A stretch of DNA of 27,479 nt from a virus: positions 1 through 27,479 of the IMG/VR virus record IMGVR_UViG_3300031787_000676. One strand, 5' to 3'. The notes below the pieces were generated by a model. It saw only the letters and a program-made list of their open reading frames with translations. It was not told the origin of the DNA and did not search any database. Each line of letters starts with the position of its first letter. Position 1 is the stretch's first letter. Below are positions 3,684 to 24,080 of the stretch, piece after piece. The translations under genes were made by a program, and so were the position numbers.

Positions 3684-5662
3684 TGCCACGTTCAGTTCTC
3701 ATTCAAACCAATTTTGTAGTCGGTGAATTGGACCCGCTCTTGCGCGGCCGCATTGACTTAAATCAATATTACAACGCACTTCAAAAAGCTACTAATGTAG
3801 TAATCCAACCCCAGGGCGGCGCACGTCGTCGTGAAGGTTTGCAATACATTGACACTTTGCCGGCTAACCTGGCAAGCCAGGCACTTAAACTTGTGCCGTT
3901 TCAATTTAACGTACTTGATTCCTATATGTTTGCGATCGTCCCTGGGCGCGTTTACATTTATAAGAACAAGGCGCTTATTACCAATATCAACGGATCAGGC
4001 AACAACTACCTGGCCGTGGCCAGCTTTACGTCCGGCGTTATTCCAGGACTAAAATTTGCCCAGTCAGCCGATACAATTATTTTTGTCCAAGAAGATTTAG
4101 CGCCAGTCAAGTTTGTACGCGGCGGGACTGACGCGAGCTGGACCGTTTCGACAATTGCGTTTGATGAGATCCCGTCGTATGCCTATACGCTAACGGTGAC
4201 AACTCCAACATCCGGCCATCTAACCCCATCGGCAACAAGCGGCAACGTTACCCTTACGTCGCAAAATTCGTTTTTTGCAACGAGTGACGTTGGGCAATAT
4301 ATCAATGCTGAACCCCAGGGACGGGCAAAGATTGTGCAATTCGTAAGCAATAATAGCGTCAAAGCCATTGTTGAGATTCCGTTTTTTGATACCAGCAATA
4401 TCGCCCAGGGCAACTGGGAGATTGAGCGCGGATATGAGGCGTCCTGGAGCGTAAGCCGCGGATGGCCAAGATCAGTAACATTCCACGAAGGCCGTCTATT
4501 TTTTGCCGGTGCCAAGTCCAGGCCAACCACCGTATGGGGATCTCGCGTATCGGATTTCTTTAATTTCCAATACGGCGAAGGATTGGACGATGAAGCCGTA
4601 GAGGCAACCATTGACACGTCGCAACTCAATACGATTACCGATATTTATTCGGGCCGTGACTTGCAAATCTTTAGTATTGGCGGCGAGTTTTACGTCCCCC
4701 AGGCAACCCTGGAACCAATTACGCCGACTAACTTTATTATTCGCACGTCAACCAAAATCGGCGCAAAGAATAATTTCCCAGTTATTGGCCTGGATTCCGG
4801 AACCTTGTTTTTGCAACGCCAGGGCAAATCCGTTAACGAGCTATTGTTTACCGATACCGAGGCAACCTACATTGCCAATAACGTGACATTACTATCCGGA
4901 CACCTGGTCAAGAACCCAGTCGATATGGCTCTTAACCGGGCAACGTCAACTGACGATACCGATCGTTTATATGTCGTTAACGGCGATGATGGAACGATTA
5001 TGTGTATTTCATTGCTGAGATCGCAAAGCGTTATTGCACCATCGGAATTTACAACTGATGGACTATTTAAGGCCGTGGCCGTTGACGTCAATACGGTTTA
5101 CGTCATTGTGGCCAGGAGTGTCAATGGATCAACCGCCTATTACGTTGAAGCATTTAATCGCGATCTGACAATGGATAGCGCTAAGTTTGCTAATACTAGC
5201 GGCGCATCTGCATCTATGTCTCACCTGGTAGCCAAGACAGTTAAAGTAATTCGCGATGGCATCCTGGAAGCTGACAAAACGGTACCAGGTGGCGGCACAG
5301 TTACATTCTCAACGGCCGCAACTGCATCCTGGCAAGTCGGTTTGAATTACAACATTAACCTAAAAACTATGCCAGTCGAGGCAAAGATGGCGTCGGGTAA
5401 TATCCGCGGATTTAAAAAGCGGATTATGGAGATCAATGCGGATGTATTTCAAACCCAGTCAATGACTATCAATGACAATCCTATTCAGTTTAGACAATTT
5501 GGATCGAACGTATTAGATACGGCAATTCAGCCATTTACCGGAGTTAAGAAGGCCGGCCCATTGCTAGGATTCGATAAAGAGGGAACAATAACGGTAACGC
5601 AAGGCGAACCGTTAAAGTTCAATTTGTTAAACATGGAATTTAAAGTTTCGATAGGACAATAA
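3683..5662 (+). CDS. Tail tubular protein B (T7 gp12-like nozzle)
   Basis: A 659-aa protein. The N-terminus MPRSVLIQTNFVVGELDPLL, the RGRIDL-x-x-Y element, and the segment A-x-N-V-V-I-Q-P-Q-GG-ARRR-G are the hallmarks of podovirus nozzle proteins. Later landmarks are HEGRLFFAGAKSRPTTVWGSRVSD (about residues 268-291) and QTIFS-like Gly/Thr-rich beta regions. The family member in T7 is 794 aa, so this is a shorter variant, as in many environmental podoviruses. The protein forms the six-fold tail nozzle that closes the head until ejection. It starts on the stop of tail tubular A and is followed after 2 nt by the gp14-like gene. Confidence 0.92.
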   Translation: MPRSVLIQTNFVVGELDPLLRGRIDLNQYYNALQKATNVVIQPQGGARRREGLQYIDTLPANLASQALKLVPFQFNVLDSYMFAIVPGRVYIYKNKALITNINGSGNNYLAVASFTSGVIPGLKFAQSADTIIFVQEDLAPVKFVRGGTDASWTVSTIAFDEIPSYAYTLTVTTPTSGHLTPSATSGNVTLTSQNSFFATSDVGQYINAEPQGRAKIVQFVSNNSVKAIVEIPFFDTSNIAQGNWEIERGYEASWSVSRGWPRSVTFHEGRLFFAGAKSRPTTVWGSRVSDFFNFQYGEGLDDEAVEATIDTSQLNTITDIYSGRDLQIFSIGGEFYVPQATLEPITPTNFIIRTSTKIGAKNNFPVIGLDSGTLFLQRQGKSVNELLFTDTEATYIANNVTLLSGHLVKNPVDMALNRATSTDDTDRLYVVNGDDGTIMCISLLRSQSVIAPSEFTTDGLFKAVAVDVNTVYVIVARSVNGSTAYYVEAFNRDLTMDSAKFANTSGASASMSHLVAKTVKVIRDGILEADKTVPGGGTVTFSTAATASWQVGLNYNINLKTMPVEAKMASGNIRGFKKRIMEINADVFQTQSMTINDNPIQFRQFGSNVLDTAIQPFTGVKKAGPLLGFDKEGTITVTQGEPLKFNLLNMEFKVSIGQ

Positions 5663-5664
5663 TC

Positions 5665-6195
5665 ATGGAAGTCGCAATTGCCGCAATGCTTGTAAGCGCC
5701 GTTGGCCAATATCAACAAGGTCAAACGCAACAGAAAATTTATAATGCCCAGGCACAAGCCGCTCAACAACAGGCGGACTTTCAAGCCCAGCAAGTAACAA
5801 TGCAAGGCAGAACCGAAGCCATTCGCGCCCAGCAAGAGGGACTAAAAACGTTGACAAACATTAACCGAACAATCTCTACGGTAAGAGCTAGAGCTGGCGC
5901 CGGAGCAATTGATCCGTTTGGCGGATCGGCTGGCTCATTGCAAACATACGCATTGCGTGAAGGTTATACCGAGTTCAATATCTCCCAGGAGAATGCAAAG
6001 CTGGCCCAGTCATCCGCCGGATTCCAGGCAAATATCTACAAATACTCAGGCCAGCAAAACGCAAATATTATGCGCGCATCCGGTGAAGCCGCGGCCCAAG
6101 CTGGTATGTATCAGGCAATTGGCACAGTCGGCCAGGCTGGCATGATGTATTCATCTGCCGGCGGACCCAAATCTAAATATTCACTATTTGGATAA
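5665..6195 (+). CDS. Internal virion protein, T7 gp14-like
   Basis: A 176-aa protein, close to T7 gp14 (196 aa). It begins with a short hydrophobic stretch (VAIAAMLVSAVGQY), then a long Gln/Ala-rich helix (about residues 17-60), a Gly/Ala turn (RARAGAGAIDPFGGSAGS), and another Ala/Gln-rich helix. This composition and the RA-x-x-GAxG-x-x-x-x-GGS element are typical of gp14-type ejection proteins, which T7 uses to form a pore in the outer membrane. It lies between the nozzle gene and the gp15-like gene, the T7 gene order. An AGGA precedes the ATG. The start junction (ggacaataatcATGG) closely resembles that of the next gene. Confidence 0.78.
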   Translation: MEVAIAAMLVSAVGQYQQGQTQQKIYNAQAQAAQQQADFQAQQVTMQGRTEAIRAQQEGLKTLTNINRTISTVRARAGAGAIDPFGGSAGSLQTYALREGYTEFNISQENAKLAQSSAGFQANIYKYSGQQNANIMRASGEAAAQAGMYQAIGTVGQAGMMYSSAGGPKSKYSLFG

Positions 6196-6200
6196 TAATC

Positions 6201-8459
6201 ATGGCCGATAGACTTCCACGATACCAACAAACCGGCATAGCGATAGATCCGTATCGCGCGGCCGCTTTACCCGCAATTGAATATGCGCCACTAAGCCGCG
6301 AAATGAGAAATCTTTCCCAGGCACAACAGGGTGCATTGGATCGCGTTATTACATTTGCCGGCAAGATTGGTATGGAACAGGCCGAAGAAAAAGGTCGGGC
6401 ATCCGTACAAACTGCTGAACAGGCTCGCCAGGTATTAGAAGATACCCAAAAAACCGGTATGCCGCGTAGTGTTTACGATAAAGCCGCTTATGACCAGGCG
6501 AATGAACTTGTTGCATTGCAATTGCAAAACGATGGTCGCAGACTTTTAAGCGAAAAAGTTAACGCATTTAAAAACGATCCTAATTCTGACCCAATTCAGT
6601 TTTTAGCAGAAGCCTCTGACGTACGAGACGGCCTGGAATCGCTGACAACTTTATTGGATCCAAAGCTAAAGGGTCGAGTATCCAACGATTTGGATCGTAT
6701 TAAAAATGTCTCATTCCTGGAAATATCAGAGCGTCACAATGACCGTGTTGCCCAGCAATTAAAAGCAACAACGCTGGCCGGTTTGGAGCAACGTAGCCAG
6801 GACGTAATCAGGATTATGAGTAGCGGCGTTGCAAATGCTGAGACTATGCTATTTCAGGAATTGCAAACTATTAAACAGTTTGGAATATCCGGCGGATTTT
6901 CTCCCCTGGAGATTGAGCGCGAAATGCAAAAGATTGGCGAGCAAGCTCACATTGCGCGCTTTAGAAAAGAATATGAGAAAGCACCAAACAAAGCAGAATT
7001 TTTAAAGCGGGTACAAGCTGATCTCGGAGCCGGTCCCATTGGCGAGCTATACGATAAAGAAGGTAATCCACTCAAACAGAATCGCATTACCCGCGGCATC
7101 GATGTAAACCGCATGGGCGCCCTGGTCAATGAGATCGAGGCAGACTTGCGCGCCAGGGACGCACAATTTAGAGCATTGCGTACTGAATTGAAAACAGACG
7201 TCACAGAATCATTGCGGATTATTTCTCTTGGCCAGGTGCCAAGTGAAAGCGTAGTAACAGAGATCCAGGGCCGCGCCCGTCGTTTAGGATTACCCGACAA
7301 TGATCCGACAATGCGCCAGGTTAACTATTTGAGCGTACTGCGCCAGCAATCAATTGCGTTTAATAAAATGTCACCAATTCAATTGGGTGACTGGATTCGT
7401 GATGCACAAAGCAAAACAACTGGTGGCGCAACACTAGAACAAGCAATGCTTATTGATGTAGCGCAAAAATCCTTTAACCATAAAACCAATATGCTGGAGA
7501 AGGATCCAGTCGGTTATATGAATCAAACCGGTGCGGCAGAAGTTAAAACCCTTAACTTTGCGGCTTCACCAGTCGATTTAGTCAAGCAAATTGGCGAGCG
7601 CGTAACGCAATCCAAATCGTTTGCGGCCAGCATGAATGTATCGCCAAAATATTTCTCCCAGGATGAAGCTGGTGCGCTTACAACATTCTTGCAAACCGCT
7701 ACTCCCGATCAGCAAATTGTATTGCTTGGCGTAATGAACCAGGGATTCGGAAAAGATTCAGGCAATGCTATGAATGAGCTTTCCAAGTTTGCTCCTGAGT
7801 TTGCTCATGCTGGCGGACTGGTTATCTCAGGTGCTAACAGACAAACCGTTTACGATGCGCTCAATGGTATGCGTCAAGTCCAGGCTGGCAATAAACCGTT
7901 TGAAGGTACTGGCGACGCGGCAACGAAGAGAAATGTTATCGCCGATCAACTTGGCGGCGCTTATGCGTTCGCACCTAAGACACGTGCCGCGATTGTTTCA
8001 ACTGCTAACAATATTTATACCCAGCGCGCAATCGTGGCCGGCAAGACAGTATTCGATGAGGATATGTATAAACAAGCATTCCAGGAAGCATCCGGCATGA
8101 CCATGGCAAAAAATGGTAAAGCATACGGCGGCATCATTGAGTATCGCGGCACACGGATTCCAATTCCGAATAACATTGCTCAGGATAGTTTTAAGGACAT
8201 CATTAACCGCGCAACGTATGAAGATTTTGCCGCAGTATCTAATGGTTTACCCGAAGATGACCAGGGCAGAAAATTTACAATAGAGCGCTTGCGTAAGGGT
8301 TATCCCGCATTTATTGATACAAATCGTGCCGTTCTTTATTACGAAGATTATCGCGGCAAGACAAGCCCATTGGCTTTTACTATCAAAGACAAATCCGCCC
8401 TGGTGGTCGATTTCCGTCAATTAGCTGATCGCGTAAAACAAAGAGAAGGCATTAAATGA
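6201..8459 (+). CDS. Internal virion protein, T7 gp15-like
   Basis: A 752-aa protein, nearly the size of T7 gp15 (747 aa) and in the same order. It is largely alpha-helical and Gln-rich. The first 110 residues contain QAQQGALDRVITFAGKIGMEQAEEKGRASVQTAEQ, a helical pattern seen in gp15-type ejection proteins. No enzyme motif is visible. In T7, gp15 and gp16 leave the capsid with the DNA and build a periplasmic conduit, so a similar role is inferred. The stop overlaps the next start in ATGA, arguing for coupled and roughly balanced synthesis with the 1078-aa protein. Confidence 0.75.
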   Translation: MADRLPRYQQTGIAIDPYRAAALPAIEYAPLSREMRNLSQAQQGALDRVITFAGKIGMEQAEEKGRASVQTAEQARQVLEDTQKTGMPRSVYDKAAYDQANELVALQLQNDGRRLLSEKVNAFKNDPNSDPIQFLAEASDVRDGLESLTTLLDPKLKGRVSNDLDRIKNVSFLEISERHNDRVAQQLKATTLAGLEQRSQDVIRIMSSGVANAETMLFQELQTIKQFGISGGFSPLEIEREMQKIGEQAHIARFRKEYEKAPNKAEFLKRVQADLGAGPIGELYDKEGNPLKQNRITRGIDVNRMGALVNEIEADLRARDAQFRALRTELKTDVTESLRIISLGQVPSESVVTEIQGRARRLGLPDNDPTMRQVNYLSVLRQQSIAFNKMSPIQLGDWIRDAQSKTTGGATLEQAMLIDVAQKSFNHKTNMLEKDPVGYMNQTGAAEVKTLNFAASPVDLVKQIGERVTQSKSFAASMNVSPKYFSQDEAGALTTFLQTATPDQQIVLLGVMNQGFGKDSGNAMNELSKFAPEFAHAGGLVISGANRQTVYDALNGMRQVQAGNKPFEGTGDAATKRNVIADQLGGAYAFAPKTRAAIVSTANNIYTQRAIVAGKTVFDEDMYKQAFQEASGMTMAKNGKAYGGIIEYRGTRIPIPNNIAQDSFKDIINRATYEDFAAVSNGLPEDDQGRKFTIERLRKGYPAFIDTNRAVLYYEDYRGKTSPLAFTIKDKSALVVDFRQLADRVKQREGIK

Positions 8460-11400
8460 GTTTCGTTTTTGACGAACCAAATCTATCGGCAACTCCTTTT
8501 TCACCATTGAAAGGTGGGGAAGATACTGGTTTCCTGGAAAACTTTAGCGCCGCGTATCAATCAAACCTAAAACTAAACAGGACCGATTCGCGCAGTATCA
8601 ATCTTAAAGAGCAATGGGAACCAATCATTAAAGAGGTCCAGGATAAAACTGGTAAGAAGTTTTTTAATCCCAGCAATTACCTGGGTCAGATGACGGCCCA
8701 AAAGGGTTACGGGGAACAAGCCTATAACGGATACTCAAAACAGATTTTTGATTTCATTAAGGAGCGTCCTGAGACATTTCCGGATCTAATCAACCTGGAC
8801 AACGACGCCTTATTTGAGCGAGCAAAAAAGAGTGCTATCAAAGCTGGCGACGTTAATGCTGATGTAGCGGCACGTCAAACACTTGGCGGATGGTTTGGTG
8901 ATATGGCCGGCGGAGCTACCGCCGTCTTAACTGATTTGCCAAACATCGCGATTACCGCTGGTGATCTATACGTTACCAGGGGAGCTGGTACCACAATCCT
9001 AAGAGAGACATTGCGCCAGGCAGTATTAAACGGCGGCGCAGAAGCAGTCACACAAATCGAAGTGGCGGACTGGTACAAAACCCTGGATCTTCCATACGAT
9101 TACAGAACATTCTTAACTAACGTAGGTACGGCCGCCGCTGGCGCTGGCATTATTACGGCCGGCGTTATGGGTGCAAAGCCAGCATTTCAATTTACCAAGA
9201 AACAACTGATCGATGGTATCGAGGTACTGAACAAGGCAAGAGCAACTCGCGAAGGCCGTCCGTACGAAGTAGATCCTGACGTCAAGATGATTAAAGAGCT
9301 TGACGAGATCGATGCAAGCGTTAACCAGGGCAACGTATTAAGAGACGATGCCGGCAACCTAGAACACAATGCTCGCGTCGATCAATCGTACGACGCAGTA
9401 TCGAACGGTGATTCAACCAGGATCACGGCCGCACCGCCGGAAAGTCCTATCAATCGTCCGAAAGATATATTTTTTCACGACAACTTAAACAACGAAATTT
9501 TTGCGTACAAGCCAAAAGACTTGCTAGTCGATGCCGAGCTATTCCAATTTAAAGCTGGCGGCGATGTCATGGGCGTTACCGAAAGATTAAAAGATATTAC
9601 CAAGTGGGATCCAGTTAAAGCAAACACGGCAATCGTTTATGAGTTTGCCGACGGACGTACATTTATCGCTGACGGCCATCAACGCCTGGGACTTGCAAAG
9701 CGTTTGCAAGAAGCAGATCCGACACAAGATATTCAGATTTACGCATTCAAGATTCGCGAAGTCGATGGATTTGATCCGGCTTATGCCAGGGCAACGGCCG
9801 CCGGCAAGAACTTGGCAGAAGGTACTGGCACACTAATCGACGCCGCCAAGATTCTTAGAGATGCACCGGAGCTGATTAAGTCATTGCCGCCCAGGTCACA
9901 GTTTGTAAGACAAGCAAACGAGCTATCTCAACTTGGACCCAAGGCATTTAACGCCGTGGTCAATGATGTAGTGCCGCCACATTTTGGATCTATCGTCGGC
10001 CGTTACATTACTGACGAGGCCCAGCAATTGGCCATCCTTCAATTATTGCGCCGCCTGGAGCCAGCAAATGCAGTCCAGGCCGAGCAAATCGTACGCCAGG
10101 CAAGAGAGGCCGGATTCGTTAAAACCGAACAGGCCGGTCTATTTGGCGATGAGGATATTGCAGAAAGCCTATTCCTGGAGCGGGCCAAGATCCTAGATCG
10201 CGCCATGAAAGAATTGCGTAAGGATAAGCAACTATTCGAGACATTAGTCAAGAATGCAAACGATATTGAACAGGCCGGCAACACCCTGGCTAAACTAAGC
10301 AACGAAGAGAAAGAGGCTATTTATGGCAAAGCGATCGCTATCATTGAAAATAACGCAAACGTCCGGGGACCCATCTCAGACAATCTCACCCGAATCGCCA
10401 AGGCGTGGAAAGATGGCGGCGGAACCAAAACTGAAACTTACGTCCGCGAGTTTACCGAAAGCGTCCGCCGAGCAATTGAGGACGGGAGTTATGAAAGGGT
10501 ACCAAATGGCGGAGATCGCGGCGATCTCACAACTCCGGCGCAAAGCAATCGCTTCGCAGAACCAGGCGCAGACGAGCTAAAAGGATTTGATGAAGGCCCC
10601 GGATCGATTGGCGCTAAGAACCAGGGCGACATCCTGGAAGGCGATCTACTGGGAGATATGCCCAATGCCGGCCAGGCGATCACCGTTGATGAGTATGTAG
10701 CCAAGTCATTAAACGAAGATGATCTTGCGGCGCTGGATGTTGAGGCACAAACAACGTTGCGTAATCTGTACCAGGACGCCGCATTACGTAAAGAACAGTT
10801 TGACAATATCAATCGCAATATTGCCAACCTGGTTAATGCTGAATACAAAGCCGCAAACTTAAAAGGATCTAGTCGTGCAGTAGAAAAGATTGTCTATGAC
10901 TATGCTGGCGACGCAACCATGATTAAGGATTTATTGCGCGCTACGATTATTGTTGACAACTTCCAACAAGCTGGCGTCGCACTAAGAGAATTGCGCGGCC
11001 AGTATCGCGTACTCGATAGCGGATTTAGAAATCTACTTGATCCAAAAGTAAAAGCCCTGGATGGTGGTTATCGCGATATTAAGATGAACGTTGAAATTGA
11101 CGGTCATATTGCAGAAGTGCAGATTAGCATTCCTGAATTTATGACAGTCAAGGATAAATATCATGCGATGTATGCAGAGCGCGATGGCATCTTGCGCCGC
11201 ATTACAGATGAGAATCGTCAACCTACTAGAGCTGAACAATCACAGATTGATAAGATGAATGCCGAGATGGGCCTGGCTTATGATGAGGCGTTAGCGGCAG
11301 TTCTTAATCGCTCGAACTCGGCCTTGTCAACTGGCGCGCCATTACGTAATGCTGAATCTGCTGGGAAAGGTCTTGGTGAAGATTTATCCCAGGCCGCGCA

Positions 11401-11692
11401 AAAGCCAGGAAAACCAGGAACAGAACCTAAAGTTACCGGGATTCCTTCAACGTCGAGAAACTCTACTTTTTTAGATGATTTCATTAAGGACACTCCTGAC
11501 TTAACTCTAGCACAGATCGGTACTGGTGGCAAACGCAATGCTGATTTGATGGACCTGGAAGTGCCTATTGCGGAAAGAATCGACCCAGTAACCGGTGAGA
11601 GAATATCGGAAGTGCAGACTGTAAAACAAATTTTAGACGACTTTGAACAGGACAAGTCTATGTTAGAGCGCTTAGTGGGGTGCGTTAAATGA
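8456..11692 (+). CDS. Large internal virion protein with ParB-like and RelA/SpoT-like domains
   Basis: A 1078-aa protein in the position of T7 gp16, so probably ejected into the host. Residues 1-210 are a structural-looking region with Gly/Ala hydrophobic helices (about 215-245). Residues about 339-467 resemble the ParB/sulfiredoxin-like fold, with the signature ADGHQRLGLAKRL around D406-G407-H408-Q409-R410. Residues about 790-920 resemble the RelA/SpoT nucleotidyltransferase-like family seen in alarmone synthetases and polymorphic toxins: KGSSRAVEK (R807, K811), K824-D825-LLRATI, GYRDIK (Y872) and EVQI (E887, Q889), followed by a KDKYHAMY helix. No lysozyme-like transglycosylase motif is seen, unlike T7 gp16. 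ATGA overlaps join it to both neighbours. The virion role is inferred from position; both domains are recognised by motif only. Confidence 0.75.
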   Translation: MSFVFDEPNLSATPFSPLKGGEDTGFLENFSAAYQSNLKLNRTDSRSINLKEQWEPIIKEVQDKTGKKFFNPSNYLGQMTAQKGYGEQAYNGYSKQIFDFIKERPETFPDLINLDNDALFERAKKSAIKAGDVNADVAARQTLGGWFGDMAGGATAVLTDLPNIAITAGDLYVTRGAGTTILRETLRQAVLNGGAEAVTQIEVADWYKTLDLPYDYRTFLTNVGTAAAGAGIITAGVMGAKPAFQFTKKQLIDGIEVLNKARATREGRPYEVDPDVKMIKELDEIDASVNQGNVLRDDAGNLEHNARVDQSYDAVSNGDSTRITAAPPESPINRPKDIFFHDNLNNEIFAYKPKDLLVDAELFQFKAGGDVMGVTERLKDITKWDPVKANTAIVYEFADGRTFIADGHQRLGLAKRLQEADPTQDIQIYAFKIREVDGFDPAYARATAAGKNLAEGTGTLIDAAKILRDAPELIKSLPPRSQFVRQANELSQLGPKAFNAVVNDVVPPHFGSIVGRYITDEAQQLAILQLLRRLEPANAVQAEQIVRQAREAGFVKTEQAGLFGDEDIAESLFLERAKILDRAMKELRKDKQLFETLVKNANDIEQAGNTLAKLSNEEKEAIYGKAIAIIENNANVRGPISDNLTRIAKAWKDGGGTKTETYVREFTESVRRAIEDGSYERVPNGGDRGDLTTPAQSNRFAEPGADELKGFDEGPGSIGAKNQGDILEGDLLGDMPNAGQAITVDEYVAKSLNEDDLAALDVEAQTTLRNLYQDAALRKEQFDNINRNIANLVNAEYKAANLKGSSRAVEKIVYDYAGDATMIKDLLRATIIVDNFQQAGVALRELRGQYRVLDSGFRNLLDPKVKALDGGYRDIKMNVEIDGHIAEVQISIPEFMTVKDKYHAMYAERDGILRRITDENRQPTRAEQSQIDKMNAEMGLAYDEALAAVLNRSNSALSTGAPLRNAESAGKGLGEDLSQAAQKPGKPGTEPKVTGIPSTSRNSTFLDDFIKDTPDLTLAQIGTGGKRNADLMDLEVPIAERIDPVTGERISEVQTVKQILDDFEQDKSMLERLVGCVK

Positions 11693-14184
11693 GCTTTAGA
11701 GAATGTATTACCAACGGCGAGAATGAGGGAAAACTCTCAGGGGACCAGGCCGCCAAGGCCAGGGGCTTATTTGACGAGCTAGAGGCGGAGTATGCCAAGA
11801 AGATGGATCCCATCCAGGCTGGCACCCAGGCGGCGAAAGATACTTTTGACGCATTGCAAAAAGAGGCCATTGAAAAGAAACGCGTCAAATTGTTGCAAAT
11901 ACGCAACTGGCAGAAGATTAGCTTTGACTTAAATCAATATGCTGGCGGAGAAAGTTTAGGAAAAGCCGCCCAGGCATTACTGGATCGCGATGAGTTTGCT
12001 AAGTATTCCAACGTCGAAGCCAGGCGCAAGGCCGTACTCGGTCAAATCTATTCCAAGATGGATGATGTCCTGGCAACCTTTAGACGTCGCGGCGTAACCG
12101 GTGGTCTAGGTAATAAAGCCATGGCCAAGGACCTGGTACGCGAAGTGTTTGGCGAGGATACCGGATCGGCCGCCGCGAAAGAATTGGCACAGTCCTGGTC
12201 AACTGCGGCGGATTATGCCCGCCAGCGCTTTAATGCGGCCGGTGGTGCCATTCCAAAACGTAAGGATTGGGGTATGCCTCAGATCCACGATTCGATGCTT
12301 GTACGCAAGGCTGGACGCGAAGAATGGACTAACTTTATCCGTGAGCGCCTGGACCTGGAAAAGATGATCGATGAGCGTACCGGGCTTAAATTTACCCCGG
12401 AACGCCTGGAGCTGGCCCTGGCACAAGTATTCGATTCCATTGCGACGGAAGGCTGGAATAAGGTTAAACCATCCGGAGCTGGTAGTGGCCGCTCAATGGC
12501 TGGCCGTCACCAGGACCATCGATTCCTGGCGTTTAAGAATGCAGATTCCTGGATGGAGTACCAGGAGAAATTCGGCAATCCTGAACCGTTCGTCACCATG
12601 GTTAATCACCTGGAAGGAATGTCCAGGGATATATCGATGATGGAGATACTAGGGCCTAACCCTAATGCGACGGTCCGGTATATCCATCAAACCGTCATGC
12701 AAGACGCCAAACTGAAAGAGGCGAACAATCCGGAAACGAAGATGGTCGAAAAGGCCAACGCACAACTGGGTATGTTTGATTCAATGTACGCGATCCTTAA
12801 TGGATCAACGGCATCCCCAGTCGATGGAACCGTTGCCAGGGGCTTTGCCGGCTTGCGCCAAATACTTCAATCGGCGCAACTTGGCGCGGCCGCCGTCTCT
12901 GCTCTAACCGATATTAACTTCCAGCGTATTGCCGCTAAGACTTCCGGCATACCCGCCGCTGACGTCATTAAACGCGTCGCCGATAACCTGGTGCCATTGA
13001 ACATTGACGAGAAGGGGCGCCTGGCATCTCGCCTGGGATTGATCGCAGAAAACTGGACCAGCGTCGCGAACGCCCAGGCACGATTCGTCGGTGATATGAC
13101 TGGCCCTGAAATTACGCGTCGCATCTCTGATACGGTCATGCGGATTACTGGCTTATCTCCCTGGACCCAGGCCGGACGCTGGGCATTTGGCATGGAGTTT
13201 ATGGGTTATATCGCTGACAATGCGGCCAAGAAATTTAAAGATTTGGATCAACCACTCCAGGACACTTTGAACCGGTACGGTATCGGCGAGGGTAACTGGG
13301 ACGTGATCCGTACTTCCGGGCTATACGAACACGAAGGTGCGACATTCTTACGTCCGGAAGAGATTGCTTTGCGGACCGACTTGCAACCAGGAAGAGCTGA
13401 CGATCTAGCGACGCGATTCCTGGAGATGATCCAGTCCGAGACTGAATTTGCCGTACCTTCTGCGTCAATCCGTGGCCGCGTCATGCTGGTAGGGGAATCC
13501 CGCCCTGGTACATTTGTCGGTGAAATCTCCAGGTCGTTCGCCATGTATAAGAATTTCCCGGTAACGCTACTCAATACCCACGTCATGCGCGCCGTGAATG
13601 CGGAAAACTTCAACAAGAAGGGCGCGTACTTTGCTGACCTGGTTATCTCGACTACCCTATTCGGCGCCCTGGCAATGCAACTCAAAGAGATTACCAAGGG
13701 GCGCGATCCACGTACAGTAATGACGCCTGAGTTTTGGGGTGCCGCATTACTCCAGGGTGGTGGACTAGGTATCCTGGGCGACTTCTTATTTAACGACGTT
13801 AACCGTTTTGGCGGCGGACTAGAGCAAACCATTGCCGGCCCGGTAGTCGGATTCCTGGATGATACGCGCCGCCTAACAATCGGCAATGTCCAGGAATTAG
13901 CAACTGGCAAGGATACCCACTTCATGCGGGAGCTGATCTCATACGCCGGACGCTATACCCCAGGGTCATCCATTTGGTATTTGCGCCTGGCACTAGAGCG
14001 TCAAATCCTGGATCGCTTACAGATTTGGGGTGATCCGGACGCTAAACAACGAATGCGGGAAATCGAAGCGCGTTACAGACGAGAAACTGGCCAACGCTAT
14101 TGGTGGTCCCCAGGTGATACCGAACCCGAACGCGGCCCGGACTTTGAACGTTTAACTGCGGAACCCCCGCCAAAAAGGAAATAA
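11689..14184 (+). CDS. Internal virion / ejection protein (conserved podovirus C-terminus)
   Basis: An 831-aa protein, ATGA-coupled to the preceding ejection protein. The N-terminal 150 residues are charged helix. Around 170-210 is SWSTAADYARQRFNAAGGAIPKRKDWGMPQIHD (the key words are A-x-x-x-RFN-x-AGG and WGMPQ-x-HD), which I recognise from large virion proteins of environmental podoviruses. The C-terminal half has hydrophobic Gly/Ala stretches (DLVISTTLFGALAMQL and GAALLQGGGLGILGDFLF), suiting membrane-active ejection proteins. It ends with the conserved type PGSS-x-WY-x-RLALER, E-x-R-x-x-x-E-x-GQ-x-YWW-x-PG. A role as the terminal part of the DNA-ejection apparatus is inferred. It is the last gene before a 48-nt gap and the tail fibre. 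Confidence 0.72.
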   Translation: MSFRECITNGENEGKLSGDQAAKARGLFDELEAEYAKKMDPIQAGTQAAKDTFDALQKEAIEKKRVKLLQIRNWQKISFDLNQYAGGESLGKAAQALLDRDEFAKYSNVEARRKAVLGQIYSKMDDVLATFRRRGVTGGLGNKAMAKDLVREVFGEDTGSAAAKELAQSWSTAADYARQRFNAAGGAIPKRKDWGMPQIHDSMLVRKAGREEWTNFIRERLDLEKMIDERTGLKFTPERLELALAQVFDSIATEGWNKVKPSGAGSGRSMAGRHQDHRFLAFKNADSWMEYQEKFGNPEPFVTMVNHLEGMSRDISMMEILGPNPNATVRYIHQTVMQDAKLKEANNPETKMVEKANAQLGMFDSMYAILNGSTASPVDGTVARGFAGLRQILQSAQLGAAAVSALTDINFQRIAAKTSGIPAADVIKRVADNLVPLNIDEKGRLASRLGLIAENWTSVANAQARFVGDMTGPEITRRISDTVMRITGLSPWTQAGRWAFGMEFMGYIADNAAKKFKDLDQPLQDTLNRYGIGEGNWDVIRTSGLYEHEGATFLRPEEIALRTDLQPGRADDLATRFLEMIQSETEFAVPSASIRGRVMLVGESRPGTFVGEISRSFAMYKNFPVTLLNTHVMRAVNAENFNKKGAYFADLVISTTLFGALAMQLKEITKGRDPRTVMTPEFWGAALLQGGGLGILGDFLFNDVNRFGGGLEQTIAGPVVGFLDDTRRLTIGNVQELATGKDTHFMRELISYAGRYTPGSSIWYLRLALERQILDRLQIWGDPDAKQRMREIEARYRRETGQRYWWSPGDTEPERGPDFERLTAEPPPKRK

Positions 14185-14232: not shown

Positions 14233-16764
14233 ATGGCTGATTTCCCAATATCACCCGTAGTGAGACGAGTAGTCTATACCGGCTCGGCTGGTACTGGACC
14301 CTATGCGTTCACCTTTGAAATATTGGCGCAAACTGATATTGACGTTTATGTCGATGCAACTCTAAAGACATTAACCACGGATTACACGGTAACGATTAAC
14401 TCAAACGGTACCGGCGCAGTTAATTTTGTTACTGCCCCAGGATCTACTAAGCGGATCACAATTGTAGGCGCCAGGGACATTACCCGCGCATCGGATTATG
14501 TAACTGGTGGCGACTTTACTGCGGCATCGCTTAACGTTGAGCTGGATCAGCAAACCATCTTCAACCAGCAAAATGCGGAAGCCTTGGGTCGTGCGATCTT
14601 GGCTCCAGTCACGGACCCAGCCTCGATCAATATGGTGTTGCCGGTGCAAACTTCCCGCGCTGGAAAGATCCTGGCATTCGATTCTGATGGTAATCCCGTA
14701 GTCGGAGAAGAGATCGGTAACTGGCGTGGTAACTGGGCCGCTGGTCAAGCCTATACCGTCCGTGACCTGGTAAAAGATTCTAGCAATGCAAACGTTTACC
14801 GGGCTAATACGGCCCATACTTCCAGCGGCACGACGCCGATCAGCTCCAATGCTGACGTGGCTAAGTGGGACCTGGTAGTCGATGCGGCATCTGCCGCCTC
14901 TAGTGCGGCCGCGGCCGCGTCATCTGCTAGTGCGGCCGCTAGTTCAGCGAGCGCGGCATCTACTTCTGCATCGAACGCCTCAACATCGGCCACGAATGCG
15001 GCCAGCTCTGCAAGTGCCGCTAGTACGTCGGCCAGCAATGCGTCAACTTCTGCAACAAACGCGTCTAACTCTGCATCATCTGCTAGCTCGTCAGCGTCAA
15101 CTGCAACGACACAAGCATCTAATGCGTCAACCTCTGCTACAAATGCAGCGACAAGCGCAACATCAGCTAGCAATAGCGCGTCAACTGCAACAACGCAAGC
15201 GACTAATGCCAGCAACTCAGCAAGCGCCGCGTCAACAAGCGCAACCAACGCGGCTAGTAGTGCAAGCGCGGCATCGACTTCTGCCAGCAATGCGTCAACA
15301 AGTGCAACCAACGCAAGCAATTCAGCATCGACGGCGACAACTCAGGCCACGAATGCCGCCAGCTCTGCGACTGCATCTGCGGCCTCGGCCGTCTCTGCCG
15401 CGTCAAGTGCCGCAAGTGCGGCCGCTTTGCTCGATAACTTTGACGATCGTTATCTCGGTGCCAAGGCATCAGACCCATCCGTTGACAATGACGGTAACGC
15501 CCTGGTAGTCGGCGCGTTATATTTCAATACGACTGACGGCGTGATGAAGGTTTACACGGCGTCCGGCTGGATTGCCGCATCATCCGCGTCGGTAGCAACT
15601 CTCACGACATTCGAATTTGTAGCAACATCCGGGCAAACCGTTTTCTCCGGTAACGATGCAAACGGGGCCAGCTTATCGTACGTCGCGCCAGCACTAATCG
15701 TTACATTGAACGGTGTTCGCTTGCGTCCTGGCGACGATTACACGGCCACGAATGGAACATCGATCACCTTAGTAAGCGCCGCGGCATTGAACGACGAGCT
15801 AGTCGTTGATGCGTTTGGATCTTTCCTAGTGGCGAATACTTATACGATTGCACAAACCGACGCTGGATTTGTTGCTAAGACATCATCAACTGGCGCCGCT
15901 ACTCTTCCAAGTGGTACAACGGCACAACGCCCAGGATCTCCAATAGTAGGACAAACAAGATTTAATACAAGTCTTGGGTTGACAGAAATTTATGACGGCT
16001 CATTTTGGCAAGCCCTTATAGGTAGCGGAACAACTACTACGTATAACGTGGAATATTTAGTCGTTGCTGGTGGTGGCGGCGGCGGCAACGGTGGCCCAGG
16101 CGGCGGCGGTGCTGGCGGAATGTTTGAAGGTTTTAGGTCTGTTACAGTCGGCACAGGATATACGGTTACTGTTGGTGGCGGCGGAGCTATTGGCTCTAAT
16201 GGAGCTAATTCTGTATTTGATAACGTTACGGCAACGGGCGGTGGCCGGGGCGGTGGATCTAGTGGTGCAGTAGGGACGGGTGGATCGGGCGGCGGTAGCG
16301 CTGAAACAGATACTAGCTACGGTACACGCTCTGTTGATAACCAAGGCTCTAACGGCGGCGCTGGAAACGGTGGTGGTGGTGGTGCTGGCGGCCCTGGACA
16401 AAACGGATTTGGTTCATGCGCTGGAGTAGGTTGGGTTGGTAATGGACAAGGCGGCATGGGACGCCCATCAAATATTTCAGGGCAAACAATTTATTATGCT
16501 GGCGGTGGATCAGGATATTATAGAAATAATGCTGGATCACCAATTAAATCATTTGCTCAGTCAGGTGGGGGTGGTGATGGATTTGCCAGCCAAACACCAC
16601 GCGTAAACTCAGGTGGTGGTGGTTATGCAGATGCTTCCGCTGGCGGATCAGGTATTGTCATCATTGCATACCCAGGCCCACAACGCGGTACTGGCGGAAC
16701 AATTACGTCGGTTGGCGGAAGGACTATTCATACATTCACTTCTTCAGGGACATTTACAGGATGA
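14233..16764 (+). CDS. Tail fibre protein with T7-type N-terminus and Gly-rich tip
   Basis: An 843-aa protein that recognises the host surface. Residues 1-135 match the T7 tail-fibre N-terminal attachment domain (VRRVVYTGSAGTGPYAFTF, then ITIVGARDITRASDY and the GGDFTAASLN element). Residues about 160-216 look like a small carbohydrate-binding-type fold (W-x-x-x-W-x-x-GQAY-x-V-x-DLV). Residues 218-398 are a seven-residue Ser/Ala/Thr/Asn repeat, probably a trimeric stalk. Residues about 400-590 have the common fibre elements (FDDRYLGAKASDP, VGALYFNTTDGVMKVY, LNGVRLRPGDDYT). Residues about 610-843 are Gly-rich, like the polyglycine-loop adhesin tips of T-even gp38-type proteins. AGGAG precedes the ATG. 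The stop overlaps the next gene in ATGA. Confidence 0.88.
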   Translation: MADFPISPVVRRVVYTGSAGTGPYAFTFEILAQTDIDVYVDATLKTLTTDYTVTINSNGTGAVNFVTAPGSTKRITIVGARDITRASDYVTGGDFTAASLNVELDQQTIFNQQNAEALGRAILAPVTDPASINMVLPVQTSRAGKILAFDSDGNPVVGEEIGNWRGNWAAGQAYTVRDLVKDSSNANVYRANTAHTSSGTTPISSNADVAKWDLVVDAASAASSAAAAASSASAAASSASAASTSASNASTSATNAASSASAASTSASNASTSATNASNSASSASSSASTATTQASNASTSATNAATSATSASNSASTATTQATNASNSASAASTSATNAASSASAASTSASNASTSATNASNSASTATTQATNAASSATASAASAVSAASSAASAAALLDNFDDRYLGAKASDPSVDNDGNALVVGALYFNTTDGVMKVYTASGWIAASSASVATLTTFEFVATSGQTVFSGNDANGASLSYVAPALIVTLNGVRLRPGDDYTATNGTSITLVSAAALNDELVVDAFGSFLVANTYTIAQTDAGFVAKTSSTGAATLPSGTTAQRPGSPIVGQTRFNTSLGLTEIYDGSFWQALIGSGTTTTYNVEYLVVAGGGGGGNGGPGGGGAGGMFEGFRSVTVGTGYTVTVGGGGAIGSNGANSVFDNVTATGGGRGGGSSGAVGTGGSGGGSAETDTSYGTRSVDNQGSNGGAGNGGGGGAGGPGQNGFGSCAGVGWVGNGQGGMGRPSNISGQTIYYAGGGSGYYRNNAGSPIKSFAQSGGGGDGFASQTPRVNSGGGGYADASAGGSGIVIIAYPGPQRGTGGTITSVGGRTIHTFTSSGTFTG
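14884..15426 (+). repeat. Heptad/21-nt repeat in the fibre stalk
   Basis: About 26 tandem copies of a seven-residue unit (typical forms SATNASN, SASAAST, SASTATT) are encoded by degenerate 21-nt repeats. The units differ mostly at synonymous positions. Ala recurs at a fixed place in each heptad, which fits a coiled coil or triple-helix stalk of the trimeric fibre. The opposite strand is also open here, but only because of the repeat's codon composition. Confidence 0.85.
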
Positions 16765-19978: not shown

Positions 19979-20002
19979 AAAAATCCCCGCACTAGGCGGG
20001 GA
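19978..20002 (-). terminator. Leftward intrinsic terminator of the minus-strand operon
   Basis: On the minus strand the order is TCCCCGC, a five-base loop, GCGGGGA, then TTTTTTT (plus-strand 20002 down to 19978). The T-run lies only on the leftward side; rightward transcripts would see the hairpin followed by GTTAAGCC. It therefore ends transcription coming from the 20051-24080 operon. Two small extra dyads follow at 20010-20028 (CCAGG/CCTGG) and 20032-20047 (TCTCT/AGAGA). Confidence 0.82.
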
Positions 20003-20050: not shown

Positions 20051-20269
20051 CTAATTTACCACGATCTCGATTCCCCTGGTTAAGTAAGGTTTGATCCTTA
20101 TCAATCCGCGTCGCTCCAGGCGGTGCATCATGGCATGAACTGTTGACGGGCTTGTGTATCCTAGCGCCTGGCATATTTCCCTGGTGCTAGGGTAAACCCC
20201 ATGATCTGCATAATGCTTGACCAGGTGATCGAGCAATCTTTTTTGCATCGGTGTTGGTGCTAATTTCAT
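20051..20269 (-). CDS. LexA-type DNA-binding domain protein without protease domain
   Basis: A 72-aa protein matching the N-terminal winged helix of LexA over its whole length: TPMQKRLLDHLVKHYADHG, the word YPSTREICQALGYTSPSTV, then RLERRGLIRI and TRGIEIV. LexA is about 200 aa with a C-terminal self-cleaving domain, which is absent here. Such a protein could bind DNA but could not be cleaved in response to RecA. It is the last gene of the leftward operon; its ATG overlaps the preceding stop by one base (TAATG). It is a likely regulator, possibly of this phage or of host SOS genes; the target is unknown. Confidence 0.85.
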   Translation of the reverse strand: MKLAPTPMQKRLLDHLVKHYADHGVYPSTREICQALGYTSPSTVHAMMHRLERRGLIRIKPYLTRGIEIVVN

Positions 20270-20523
20270 TAGTCACCCGCCCATCGAACGCCGGTGCGCC
20301 CCATCTTTGCGTTGTACCAGTCCTCGAACTCATTGGCCAGCTCTGCCAGGCTTTTCTCCGGACACTTGTGAACCTGGTCGATCTCTAAAGTCTTGCCGCA
20401 TTTCTCGCAAGTGTCTGCGTCGATCTGCACGTGGCCAGCAAACGGGATCGGCTCCAGGTTTTCCTTCCTGGCGGCAATGTGGTACTCCAGTCTTTCCTGA
20501 AATTTAGATTTCATCTTCATCAT
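20269..20523 (-). CDS. Small zinc-ribbon-like protein, unknown
   Basis: An 84-aa protein. The centre holds CEKCGKTLEIDQVHKC (C-x-x-C and H-x-C), a possible zinc site, flanked by helical, charged ends (FQERLEYHIAARKE and LANEFEDWYNAKMG). I do not recognise the family. Its start overlaps the exonuclease stop in ATGA and is followed by a second ATG one codon later. It sits between the YqaJ exonuclease and the LexA-like gene, so a role in recombination or regulation is only a guess by location. Confidence 0.6.
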   Translation of the reverse strand: MMKMKSKFQERLEYHIAARKENLEPIPFAGHVQIDADTCEKCGKTLEIDQVHKCPEKSLAELANEFEDWYNAKMGRTGVRWAGD

Positions 20524-21488
20524 TTCACTCCCAAGATTTGTAAAGTTTTAGCACGTTCTACCCTGGCCGGTTTAGCTGGCGTTATCTTCTCAGGCTGGGC
20601 CTTATAGGATCGCATGGCCCACTTGATTCGCGCCGCAATTGAACCGTCATCGTTTTTAATATAACCCTCTTCGGTGTTGGTCATGTTGTCCATGATCCTG
20701 GACTGGAGCTGATCGATCTCTTCTTCCAGGATCTTGGCCTGGGCCTTTGCCTCGATCAAGCGGCGCGCATAGGTGGCCGTGTCACCGGACAACTCGATCG
20801 CTGGTTTAGATTCATCCACGGACGGGTAAGCCTTTACTGCATCGGCCGGACTGATTGCCGGGTACCAGGACTTACTATTAACGCGGCGCGTGAACTCTTT
20901 GCATACGTCAATAATCTTTGTCTGCATATTGCCGCTCGCCTGGTAAAAGAATAAGCGCAACTCGGTCCCTCGGAACAAGGTCGCGATCACTCCCCAGGTA
21001 TAGCCAGCGCATAGCATTTGCGCCTGGAGCTGGAGCGGACCACGATATAAGGGTGGCTCATCTTCGGGCATGGCACTCGTTAGTTTGGATTCGCAACATC
21101 CCAGGCCGTTCAATGTAATGCTATCTGCGCCGATGACATAAACGCCCATGTCCGGATCCGTTGTAATCGTGCGGCCGTCACCTTCCCAAATTGAATCGAG
21201 CGAGCATTGCAAAATAATCTCGTCATCTTCCAGGTAAGAAAGCGCATAGTCCACTTGCAACTCTTTGACCGTGATGCCCAGGCGTTTGGCCGCCTCGGTG
21301 ATGATGATTGGCTCCAGGGTGTTGCCCCAGTCTGCGGCCTCAACTTCAAACGGTGGGCGCGGCTTGCCTTCCATCGCGTCGATGCTGGCCGCCAGCTCGT
21401 CATTCGGTGAGCGGAACGGGGATACCCCCATGATGCTAGGGATCCGGGACCCGGACGGGAGAATGTCGTTTGTAATTTTTCCAACCAT
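20520..21488 (-). CDS. YqaJ-like viral recombinase/exonuclease
   Basis: A 322-aa protein of the YqaJ/lambda-exonuclease-like PD-(D/E)XK group, which degrades one DNA strand so that annealing or recombination can follow. Visible words: RIPSIMGVSPFRSPND near the N-terminus, WGNTLEPIIITEAAKRLG, the active-site Asp in CSLDSIWEG, the E-x-K pair in CESKLT, and QLQAQMLCAGY. The C-terminal 90 residues are helical with EAKAQAKILEEEIDQLQ, as in the longer YqaJ forms. I chose the ATG at 21488 because AAAGGA lies 8 nt upstream, rather than an upstream in-frame ATG at 21527. The stop of a 57-aa membrane-protein gene is one base before it. Confidence 0.88.
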   Translation of the reverse strand: MVGKITNDILPSGSRIPSIMGVSPFRSPNDELAASIDAMEGKPRPPFEVEAADWGNTLEPIIITEAAKRLGITVKELQVDYALSYLEDDEIILQCSLDSIWEGDGRTITTDPDMGVYVIGADSITLNGLGCCESKLTSAMPEDEPPLYRGPLQLQAQMLCAGYTWGVIATLFRGTELRLFFYQASGNMQTKIIDVCKEFTRRVNSKSWYPAISPADAVKAYPSVDESKPAIELSGDTATYARRLIEAKAQAKILEEEIDQLQSRIMDNMTNTEEGYIKNDDGSIAARIKWAMRSYKAQPEKITPAKPARVERAKTLQILGVK

Positions 21489-21489
21489 T

Positions 21490-21663
21490 TTATTTTCCTT
21501 TCGGGAAGTCGATAAACACGCACTCATTTGGAATTACATTGCCGCGCGAATCAATGTAATATTCGCCGCAACCAGCGAACCATTCGATCGTAATCACCGC
21601 AAGAAACGCGGAGAATGCAACCATCATTAAACCTTGTAACAAGAACGAAGTTAATTTTTTCAT
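21490..21663 (-). CDS. Tiny membrane protein with Cys-containing tail (57 aa)
   Basis: MKKLTSFLLQ leads into a hydrophobic segment (about residues 6-27, GLMMVAFSAFLAVITIEWF). A short tail follows with two Cys (C32, C47), probably outside the cytoplasm and possibly disulphide-bonded. It could be a signal-anchored or exported protein. Its ATG overlaps the stop of the 34-aa gene (ATGA) and its own stop is one base before the YqaJ start, so all three are translationally chained. No family is recognised; small phage membrane proteins of this kind sometimes block superinfection, but nothing here proves it. Confidence 0.6.
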   Translation of the reverse strand: MKKLTSFLLQGLMMVAFSAFLAVITIEWFAGCGEYYIDSRGNVIPNECVFIDFPKGK

Positions 21664-21764
21664 TGTTCAAATTTCTCCAGTAAGTAAAGCGTCACAAGAA
21701 TTACCAGGATCGCGAAGAACCCGGCGAACATAAAAACAAATCCGGTAATTAACGCATCGAGCAT
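21660..21764 (-). CDS. 34-aa single-TM protein
   Basis: MLDALITGF is followed by a hydrophobic helix almost to the end (VFMFAGFFAILVILVTLYLL) and a short EKFEQ tail. The start lies 16 nt inside the end of the HD-hydrolase gene, with AGAAGG 8-12 nt upstream, and the stop overlaps the next start in ATGA. The good ribosome site and chained overlaps argue that this very small frame is real. Function unknown. Confidence 0.55.
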   Translation of the reverse strand: MLDALITGFVFMFAGFFAILVILVTLYLLEKFEQ

Positions 21765-22282
21765 TTGAGTATCCCTTCTGCGGCGAGTGATGCCGCTCTC
21801 TTTTTCAAAGTCGCATCTCCCCTGGTCAATACGTTAATCATGTCAACCTTTTCTTCCAGGTACATTTTTGCCCAGGCTGGATCGCATTCAAGCGCCAGGT
21901 CGATGCCCGATAAATTCGAAATGATGTCGGCCAGCTTGATCGTCTGCGCGCTCTCGCTCGCGTTCATCATAATCTGACGATTGATAAACGCTCTCGCGAT
22001 ACGATCACCATCTTGTTCATCGGCCGCATTCGTAACCTGGTAAACCATGCGCGCGATATTCTCGTTGAACTCTAGTACCAGGTCGGTATATGTCACGTCG
22101 CAATCTTCGATGACATCGTGCAAAACTGCGGCGGCCAGGACGTCATCATCATTACATACGCCGCGGACGATCTGCATTACTTCCATGGGGTGACTGATGT
22201 AAGGTAAGCCCGTGAACTTACGGAGCTGGCCATCGTGCGCCTGGTCCGCGAATAGTGTTGCTCTTGCGATTAGATTCATCAT
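21749..22282 (-). CDS. HD-domain hydrolase of the SpoT/MESH1 (small alarmone hydrolase) type
   Basis: A 177-aa single-domain protein of the HD_4 class, whose members remove pyrophosphate from (p)ppGpp or, in MESH1, also dephosphorylate NADPH. The family motifs are present in order: AHDGQLRK-x-TG (H16, R21), PYISHP (H31), the HD pair AAAVLHDVIED (H55-D56, E59-D60), and IKLADIISNL (D119, N123). All Mn-binding and catalytic residues I expect in SpoT/MESH1 are there. No synthetase or regulatory domain is attached. It is ATGA-coupled to the serine recombinase upstream and overlaps a tiny membrane-protein gene downstream. GGGAG precedes the ATG. It probably adjusts host alarmone levels or opposes a toxic synthetase. 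Confidence 0.85.
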   Translation of the reverse strand: MMNLIARATLFADQAHDGQLRKFTGLPYISHPMEVMQIVRGVCNDDDVLAAAVLHDVIEDCDVTYTDLVLEFNENIARMVYQVTNAADEQDGDRIARAFINRQIMMNASESAQTIKLADIISNLSGIDLALECDPAWAKMYLEEKVDMINVLTRGDATLKKRAASLAAEGILKCSMR

Positions 22283-22965: not shown

Positions 22966-23210
22966 AATTTCACCTCGCTAATTTCACGGCCCGGATCATC
23001 GGGCGAACTGGCCGCGCGGCAACGAATCTCGTACTCGCCGAATGCGGCCTCGTAGTCCCTGGAATATAAGCCGGCGTACATCTTGCCGTCGGGGTCTTGC
23101 AAGAACGTCGCATACTCGCGAACGTCCAGGCGTTTGACCAGGACGACGGCAACCGGGCGACGGACTGCATCGCCCTGGAATACGGTCCGGCGTAGGATCG
23201 CCAGTTTCAT
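22962..23210 (-). CDS. Hypothetical protein (82 aa)
   Basis: An 82-aa protein with no recognised family. It starts MKLAILRRTVFQGDAV and has a central Tyr/Asp-rich part (EYATFLQDPDGKMYAGLYSRDY). It looks like a small alpha/beta protein and has one Cys. Its start overlaps the preceding LPD29 gene by 4 nt (ATGA) and its stop overlaps the recombinase start by 4 nt. The conserved spacing supports a real gene. The opposite frames here are also open but lack ribosome sites and fit no operon. Confidence 0.6.
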   Translation of the reverse strand: MKLAILRRTVFQGDAVRRPVAVVLVKRLDVREYATFLQDPDGKMYAGLYSRDYEAAFGEYEIRCRAASSPDDPGREISEVKL

Positions 23211-23794
23211 GCGGCCAACCTACCAACACAACCCATCCCGTACCCGTCATCGCCCAGGCTAGAGATCCGAGCGAGCGTCGCGCTCTCTTGAACCGGGAAG
23301 TCGGCGGCCAACTCTTTGACCACTTCATCCAGGCGTCTGTTGAACCCGCCGTACAACCCGTTACCCATGCCAGGAATCTCGCGGCTGAGTGACGCGCCAT
23401 TCTTAACATCGGCGACGGTCACACGTGGGAGCGGATCGCTGGCGAAGTTACCGGCAAACTTCTCGTACAAGGCATCGAGCGCGGCGGCATACAACTCGTC
23501 GCTGATCTGACGATTTACGAACACGAAATCGGCACCGAACCGGATCTCCTGGCCGTCGATCGCGGTATAGTTTTGACCTTTGTAGTCTTGCATCCCGTCG
23601 AAGTAAGAGGCCTCGAAGATCCCGACGACGGCCTTCACGGCGTCGTAGTTTGGGCCGTCCTGGTACCGGATATTGATACTAGCGCCGCCGCTATACACGC
23701 TGGACCGGACGCTGAACTTGACGCCAGGGAAAGATTCTTTTAGGACCTGGCGAATCATTACTGCGGTTTCTGCACAACTGAGATAATTTTTCAT
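23207..23794 (-). CDS. LPD29-domain protein
   Basis: A 195-aa protein. The first half, KNYLSCAETAVMIRQVLKES then FPGVKFSVRSSVYSGGASI and a W/Y-x-DGP word, matches the large polyvalent protein-associated domain 29 pattern. That domain is found alone or fused in phage and conjugative-element proteins and is of unknown biochemical role. The second half (about 100-195) has no family I recognise. I set the start at MKNYL (23794) because AGGAGA lies about 10 nt upstream; an earlier in-frame GTG/ATG at 23848 would overlap the next gene and lacks a site. It is the second gene of the leftward operon. Confidence 0.72.
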   Translation of the reverse strand: MKNYLSCAETAVMIRQVLKESFPGVKFSVRSSVYSGGASINIRYQDGPNYDAVKAVVGIFEASYFDGMQDYKGQNYTAIDGQEIRFGADFVFVNRQISDELYAAALDALYEKFAGNFASDPLPRVTVADVKNGASLSREIPGMGNGLYGGFNRRLDEVVKELAADFPVQESATLARISSLGDDGYGMGCVGRLAA

Positions 23795-23810
23795 GCTGAT
23801 TTCTCCTAGA

Positions 23811-24080
23811 TTAAGAAACAAGGGATTCGAGATTACCGTCGGCACCAAACTCGCTGACGATTTTCCGAATCACGATTACGTTGCCAAACATTGACACGGC
23901 GCTAACACCTTCTACTTGATCGAAAGTAGGAACCTGGCCGTCCATGAAGTATCTTTCCGAAAGAGCTTGCTCGATTGTGAAACCGGACATCTCTTCAAAG
24001 TAGGCGGCGGCGCTGGATAATTTTTTGAAGGTCCGGATAAATTGACCATCAGGAGCGCGATTGATTATTTGATATTTCAT
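23811..24080 (-). CDS. Hypothetical protein, first gene of the leftward operon (89 aa)
   Basis: An 89-aa protein starting MKYQIINRAPDGQFIRTF, with a helix (SSAAAYFEEMSGFTIEQALSE) and a beta-rich C-terminus (AVSMFGNVIVIRKIV). It is not recognised. GAAAGGA lies 7-13 nt before the ATG. It is the first gene after the leftward promoter (24116-24144), so it is expected to be expressed early, as phage takeover proteins often are. No membrane segment, Cys or catalytic signature is seen. Confidence 0.62.
   Translation of the reverse strand: MKYQIINRAPDGQFIRTFKKLSSAAAYFEEMSGFTIEQALSERYFMDGQVPTFDQVEGVSAVSMFGNVIVIRKIVSEFGADGNLESLVS

Follow-up and report, generated by a model that had tools for sequence, protein, structure and literature searches.

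The window, a virus record of 27,479 bases with a T7-like gene order, encodes on its minus strand a protein of 177 amino acids that is very probably a small alarmone hydrolase (SAH) of a known phage clade. The protein displays homology to SAHs and an intact active site, from which enzymatic activity is inferred. The same genome also carries a domain of the opposite type, a RelA/SpoT-type synthetase, which the first-pass annotation of the SAH gene does not list. Phage-borne SAHs have been noted earlier, among the anti-alarmone enzymes of jumbo phages (PMC7824862) and in phage Adele (PMC12846349). The gene itself is ordinary; the combination of an SAH with a synthetase domain may be new.

The order of genes in the window is: portal end, capsid, tail tube A and B, internal virion proteins, fibre and lysis genes, followed by a leftward gene string and a rightward replication string (some of the structural gene names are taken from gene order). 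No tRNA or Rfam family was found in the window. The leftward string is compact, and the start codon of the SAH gene overlaps the stop of the upstream resolvase gene. The first-pass annotation had placed the SAH beside recombination genes and tiny membrane genes, and this is what the neighborhood displays: the resolvase is upstream, and two hydrophobic peptides and a RecE-like exonuclease are downstream. Features are listed in Table 1.

Table 1. Positions of the SAH gene, the synthetase domain and neighboring features in the window.
Feature	Position	Strand	Basis or remark
Small alarmone hydrolase (SAH), RSH-type HD domain, 177 aa, PaSpo clade	21749–22282	-	Pfam, NCBIfam, PHROG, PDB, Foldseek, catalytic residues, tree
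Resolvase/invertase-type serine recombinase, 228 aa	22279–22965	-	PF00239 3e-30, phrog_125; stop overlaps SAH start
34-aa hydrophobic peptide, overlaps SAH stop	21660–21764	-	read from the sequence; present in 6 of the 7 relatives compared
57-aa hydrophobic (membrane) peptide	21490–21663	-	conserved in relatives, also those without SAH
RecE/YqaJ-like recombination exonuclease	20520–21527	-	PF09588 2e-6, phrog_434 3e-32
LexA-type winged-helix protein, DNA-binding part only	20051–20269	-	PF01726 5e-15
Terminator-like stem-loop with T run, end of leftward gene string	19984–20002	-	consensus match only
1078-aa polyvalent protein in internal-virion-protein block, between gp15-like and gp16-like genes	8456–11692	+	gene order; phrog_10691 4e-63 over aa 359–700
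RelA/SpoT-type nucleotide 3'-pyrophosphokinase-like (Tas1-like) domain, aa 737–951 of polyvalent protein	10664–11308	+	phmmer, profile, AF2, Foldseek, motifs
gp16-like virion structural protein (neighbor used for comparative sampling)	11689–14184	+	phrog_684 6e-185

Two minor features of the window may be added. A stand-alone LPD29 gene (large polyvalent protein associated domain 29) at positions 23207–23848 (minus strand) belongs to the leftward string that carries the SAH. The tail-fibre gene at positions 14800–15500 contains long low-complexity repeats of Ser/Ala/Thr, as a result of which other frames stay open and give spurious open reading frames of 174–208 aa.

The SAH open reading frame runs from 22282 to 21749 with an ATG start and 177 codons. 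Pfam searches show a match to HD_4 (9e-15, over the cut-off). NCBIfam matches are to RelA/SpoT-family models only, over their N-terminal hydrolase part (spoT_relA, 2e-23, over the first 123 positions of the model), and PHROG 990, annotated as "metal-dependent phosphohydrolase", matches at 1e-37. In a PDB sequence search the significant matches are SAH and Rel/SpoT proteins only. The AlphaFold2 model has a pLDDT of 91.2, and with Foldseek its best fold matches include human MESH1, C. glutamicum RelH and P. aeruginosa SAH (TM about 0.8), as well as the B. caccae (p)ppApp hydrolase and Rel/SpoT proteins. MESH1 and these bacterial SAHs have the fold (best TM about 0.8) and the catalytic residues in common with the window's SAH, but sequence identity is 19%–29% and substrate preference may differ.

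The protein is a single domain, without a synthetase, TGS or ACT domain. The RSH-hydrolase active-site set is complete: the motif residues H31, H55-D56, E59-D60, D119 and N123 are all at the positions given in the first-pass annotation. These residues, like R21 and K22, do not vary across an alignment of 15 relatives with identities down to 28%. An SAH with 77%–100% identity is encoded by 20 other IMG/VR contigs, and a relative of 66% identity is found in the genome G006. Comparisons with relatives give dN/dS values of 0.09–0.17 with dS up to 1.8, thus the protein is under strong purifying selection. That the protein is instead another HD phosphohydrolase (a dNTPase or 5'-nucleotidase) or an inactive relic is very improbable. 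The generic HD family PF01966 also matches, but more weakly (2e-7); every specific sequence, PDB and fold match is to SAH/RSH models and structures and not to other HD families, the active site is intact, and dN/dS is about 0.1. None of the Pfam, NCBIfam, PHROG, PDB or fold comparisons favored a dNTPase or 5'-nucleotidase family, the case named in the first-pass annotation as contrary to its SpoT/MESH1-like alarmone hydrolase call. That call is backed by sequence, by predicted structure and by the phylogeny described below.

No near-identical phage record was found by megablast. A tblastn search of 50,697 phage records shows related SAHs in 115 of them, the best matches being Komagataeibacter phage phiKM1 (42%) and Salmonella phage SSU5 (41%). 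The SSU5 protein is PaSpo, and the 41% identity extends over 157 aa. In a maximum likelihood tree of 86 SAHs, the window's SAH joins those of phiKM1, SSU5, OLIVR6, DLP6, D6 and others in a clade of 19 rows with support 99/97. This clade is apart from most bacterial SAHs, but four bacterial rows are inside it.

PaSpo reverses the tRNA pyrophosphorylation carried out by FaRel2 and is a toxSAS neutralizer (PMC11559606); it has also been used to neutralize CapRel during purification (PMC9712102). In a passage of PMC7644958 the SAHs of SSU5 and PVP-SE1 are cited as reported to counter FaRel. The window's SAH resembles PaSpo and the other phage SAHs of PHROG 990 in having a single HD domain with the same active site, in being phage-borne, and in its position in the same supported clade. 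It differs in that it is only 41% identical to PaSpo and in that the phage is of another type (podovirus-like; its longest relatives reach about 35 kb). The window's genome also has a Tas1-like domain, whereas none was found in SSU5 by profile search.

By analogy with these clade mates, the most likely role of the SAH would be removal of host-made alarmones or of tRNA pyrophosphate, a reading held with about even confidence. The protein would be an Mn2+-dependent 3'-pyrophosphohydrolase of the PaSpo clade, made from the leftward gene string, which, judged by gene order only, is probably expressed early. It would take the 3'-pyrophosphate off (p)ppGpp, (p)ppApp or pyrophosphorylated tRNA, which the infected host may make by RelA/SpoT or by a toxSAS/CapRel-type defence, and transcription, translation and nucleotide pools would stay usable for the phage. 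Roles against the stringent response and in CapRel/toxSAS counter-defence may be inferred from the published action of PaSpo as a toxSAS neutralizer. Ten isolate phages with related SAHs show no Tas1-like domain in a profile search, thus the usual role of the clade does not need such a domain. This SAH would place an uncultured podovirus lineage among the phages equipped to counter the stringent response or alarmone-based immunity.

A general metabolic role, in which the enzyme would hydrolyze NADPH, PAPS or basal host alarmones to tune metabolism apart from immunity, is improbable. The MESH1-NADPH and MESH1-PAPS structures (human MESH1) are among the top folds for the model, and a promiscuous orphan bacterial SAH hydrolyzes NADPH (PMC9765508). 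However, PaSpo, the nearest characterized relative, acts on toxSAS products, and the operon holds nothing that points to redox or sulfur metabolism.

The synthetase-type domain in the same genome could be an alternative reason for the SAH gene. It is located in the 1078-aa polyvalent protein. A phmmer comparison of aa 737–951 with Tas1 gives an E-value of 2.9e-5, and a profile built from 25 sequences of the domain matches Tas1 at 1e-22 and canonical GTP pyrophosphokinases at 2e-6. The AF2 model of the domain has a pLDDT of 81.9, with the core above 90. Foldseek gives Tas1 as the top match (1.6e-7), followed by the exported synthetase 8vx3 and RelA/Rel enzymes. The motif residues (paired Lys, Mg-binding Asp, GY-D and E-Q) are invariant in the 25 sequences. 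The syn3 motif is GYRDIK, which is atypical in that it has neither the Apk GxN form nor the RSH SxH form; it therefore points to no particular substrate (A, G or tRNA). The dN/dS of the domain is mostly 0.06–0.16, which indicates purifying selection. A single alignment of all synthetase domains is too divergent for scanning.

By profile score and fold, the closest solved relative of the domain is Tas1/Apk1, a type VI effector and (p)ppApp synthetase of P. aeruginosa. The identity is about 21%, and Tas1/Apk1 differs in its delivery by a secretion system and in having a dedicated immunity protein. RelA/SpoT-type domains in large multi-domain proteins delivered by phages have been described by Iyer et al. 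(2017; PMC5512222). The passages of that article used here name spirochaete and epsilonproteobacterial (pro)phages and MuF fusions, and contain no mention of a swappable slot in a podovirus protein or of a co-encoded SAH. Judged from synteny only, the polyvalent protein of the window is probably present in the particle and ejected with the DNA.

The part of the polyvalent protein that carries the domain is exchangeable. A protein encoded upstream of the gp16-like gene is present in 73 relatives. Among them, its C-terminal part is a synthetase domain, a zeta-toxin domain (L124, L103, L112) or an acetyltransferase (L120); shorter versions of the protein (L072, L099, L106) lack this part. The polyvalent proteins of the window and of L124 are 52%–90% identical per 50-residue block to about residue 750; past this position identity drops to 12%–34%, with recovery only at the very C-terminus. 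By these comparisons the site next to the gp16-like gene is a swappable, polymorphic effector slot.

In the window's own clade the pairing of SAH and synthetase domain is real: the two are found together in the window and in all 6 contigs of the clade in which both loci are covered. A functional link between them is putative. The two genes are about 10 kb apart and on opposite strands, with the hydrolase not adjacent to the synthetase gene. One suggestion is that the SAH acts as an antidote to the Tas1-like domain of the phage itself by removing its product, as a decoupled version of the prophage Apk2/Aph1 toxin-immunity pair. This is the main rival to removal of host-made alarmones and is possible but rather unlikely. 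In this equally tentative scenario the domain would enter the cell as part of the ejected virion protein, and a second round of synthesis would follow late in infection. The SAH reaction that acts on host products would also remove any (p)ppNpp coming from the virion domain, and the two roles are not mutually exclusive.

Apart from the co-occurrence itself, self-protection is favored by the genome of L124 (G041), a close relative whose gp16-like protein is 81% identical. It has the zeta-toxin domain in the slot and a clean absence of the SAH: where the gene would be expected, the stop of the resolvase abuts the start of the membrane peptide. On the other side, the sister phage G011 has an intact-looking synthetase domain but no SAH at that locus, and the SAH is likewise absent there in three further sister contigs. 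No HD_4 match was found in 21 more records with divergent synthetase domains (contigs up to 45 kb, possibly incomplete), nor in four records with other large virion-type proteins (also possibly incomplete). The SAH is found alongside the synthetase in seven genomes of the clade and not in G011 or distant relatives, all of which may be incomplete. A general SAH-synthetase association among podovirus relatives, considered over 76 records with the gp16-like gene or the domain, is unsupported beyond the window's own clade. A single gain of the SAH within the clade accounts for the co-occurrence; there is no independent association, and the pairing by itself is not evidence of function.

The same type of domain is found near an SAH in unrelated phages, which also favors self-protection. 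This is the case in all 7 contigs picked up with the domain as the only criterion (one closely related group, L022–L030) and in Bordetella phage vB_BbrM_PHB04 (L211, positions 5077–7342), which shows in a row a portal gene, a 493-aa RelA_SpoT-domain protein, a 69-aa open reading frame and an SAH. The PHB04 protein is 37% identical over 111 aa to the window's synthetase domain and passes the Pfam RelA_SpoT cut-off. In the tree, however, the SAHs of PHB04 and of the L022–L030 group are on other branches; the window's SAH is outside these toxin-linked branches and groups with phages that lack a synthetase.

A published precedent for self-protection is the Apk2-IapK-Aph1 module of MuF prophage toxins (PMC12226406). 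As in the window, a (p)ppApp-synthetase-type domain in a particle-region protein and an SAH are present in one phage genome, the particle location in the window being assigned by synteny. In the window, by contrast, the domain belongs to a protein of a podovirus internal virion block. Its SAH is encoded on the opposite strand, is unlinked to the synthetase gene and falls in another SAH branch, and no gene resembling IapK was seen.

The PHB04 row of genes resembles an Apk2-IapK-Aph1-type module in a sequenced phage isolate, where the synthetase protein is annotated as hypothetical. A MuF label for the synthetase proteins of PHB04 and of the L022 group was dropped, as they show no family match to MuF. 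PADLOC gave no hit for the SAH, the polyvalent protein or the PHB04 proteins.

A more speculative and doubtful sequence of events is one in which the podovirus would eject an alarmone-synthetase effector with its DNA and an early SAH would end the pulse, i.e. a timed attack-and-erase pair in one phage. In this doubtful reading the effector would occupy the exchangeable slot of the virion protein, which in relatives holds a synthetase, a zeta toxin, an acetyltransferase or nothing. A Tas1-like domain in a probably ejected protein, encoded together with an SAH, leads to testable questions: can some phages raise and also erase alarmone-type nucleotides during a single infection, and is the target of the SAH the host or an effector of the phage itself?

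The swappable slot beside the gp16-like gene is a simple place to seek further injected effectors. Transglycosylase or lysozyme domains are found in the equivalent protein of more distant relatives (records of the polymorphic slot include L105 and L129). Giant proteins encoded at L237 7655–16978 and L236 8582–12133 combine a synthetase-like domain with ART-PolyVal (3108 aa) or ddrB-ParB (1184 aa). A further cassette type is present in L086 (positions 8850–9995), L090 and L127, with no Pfam match in L086, the one checked. The L127 cassette displays a trace similarity to the synthetase profile (E-value = 1e-3) and could be either a highly divergent relative or something different.
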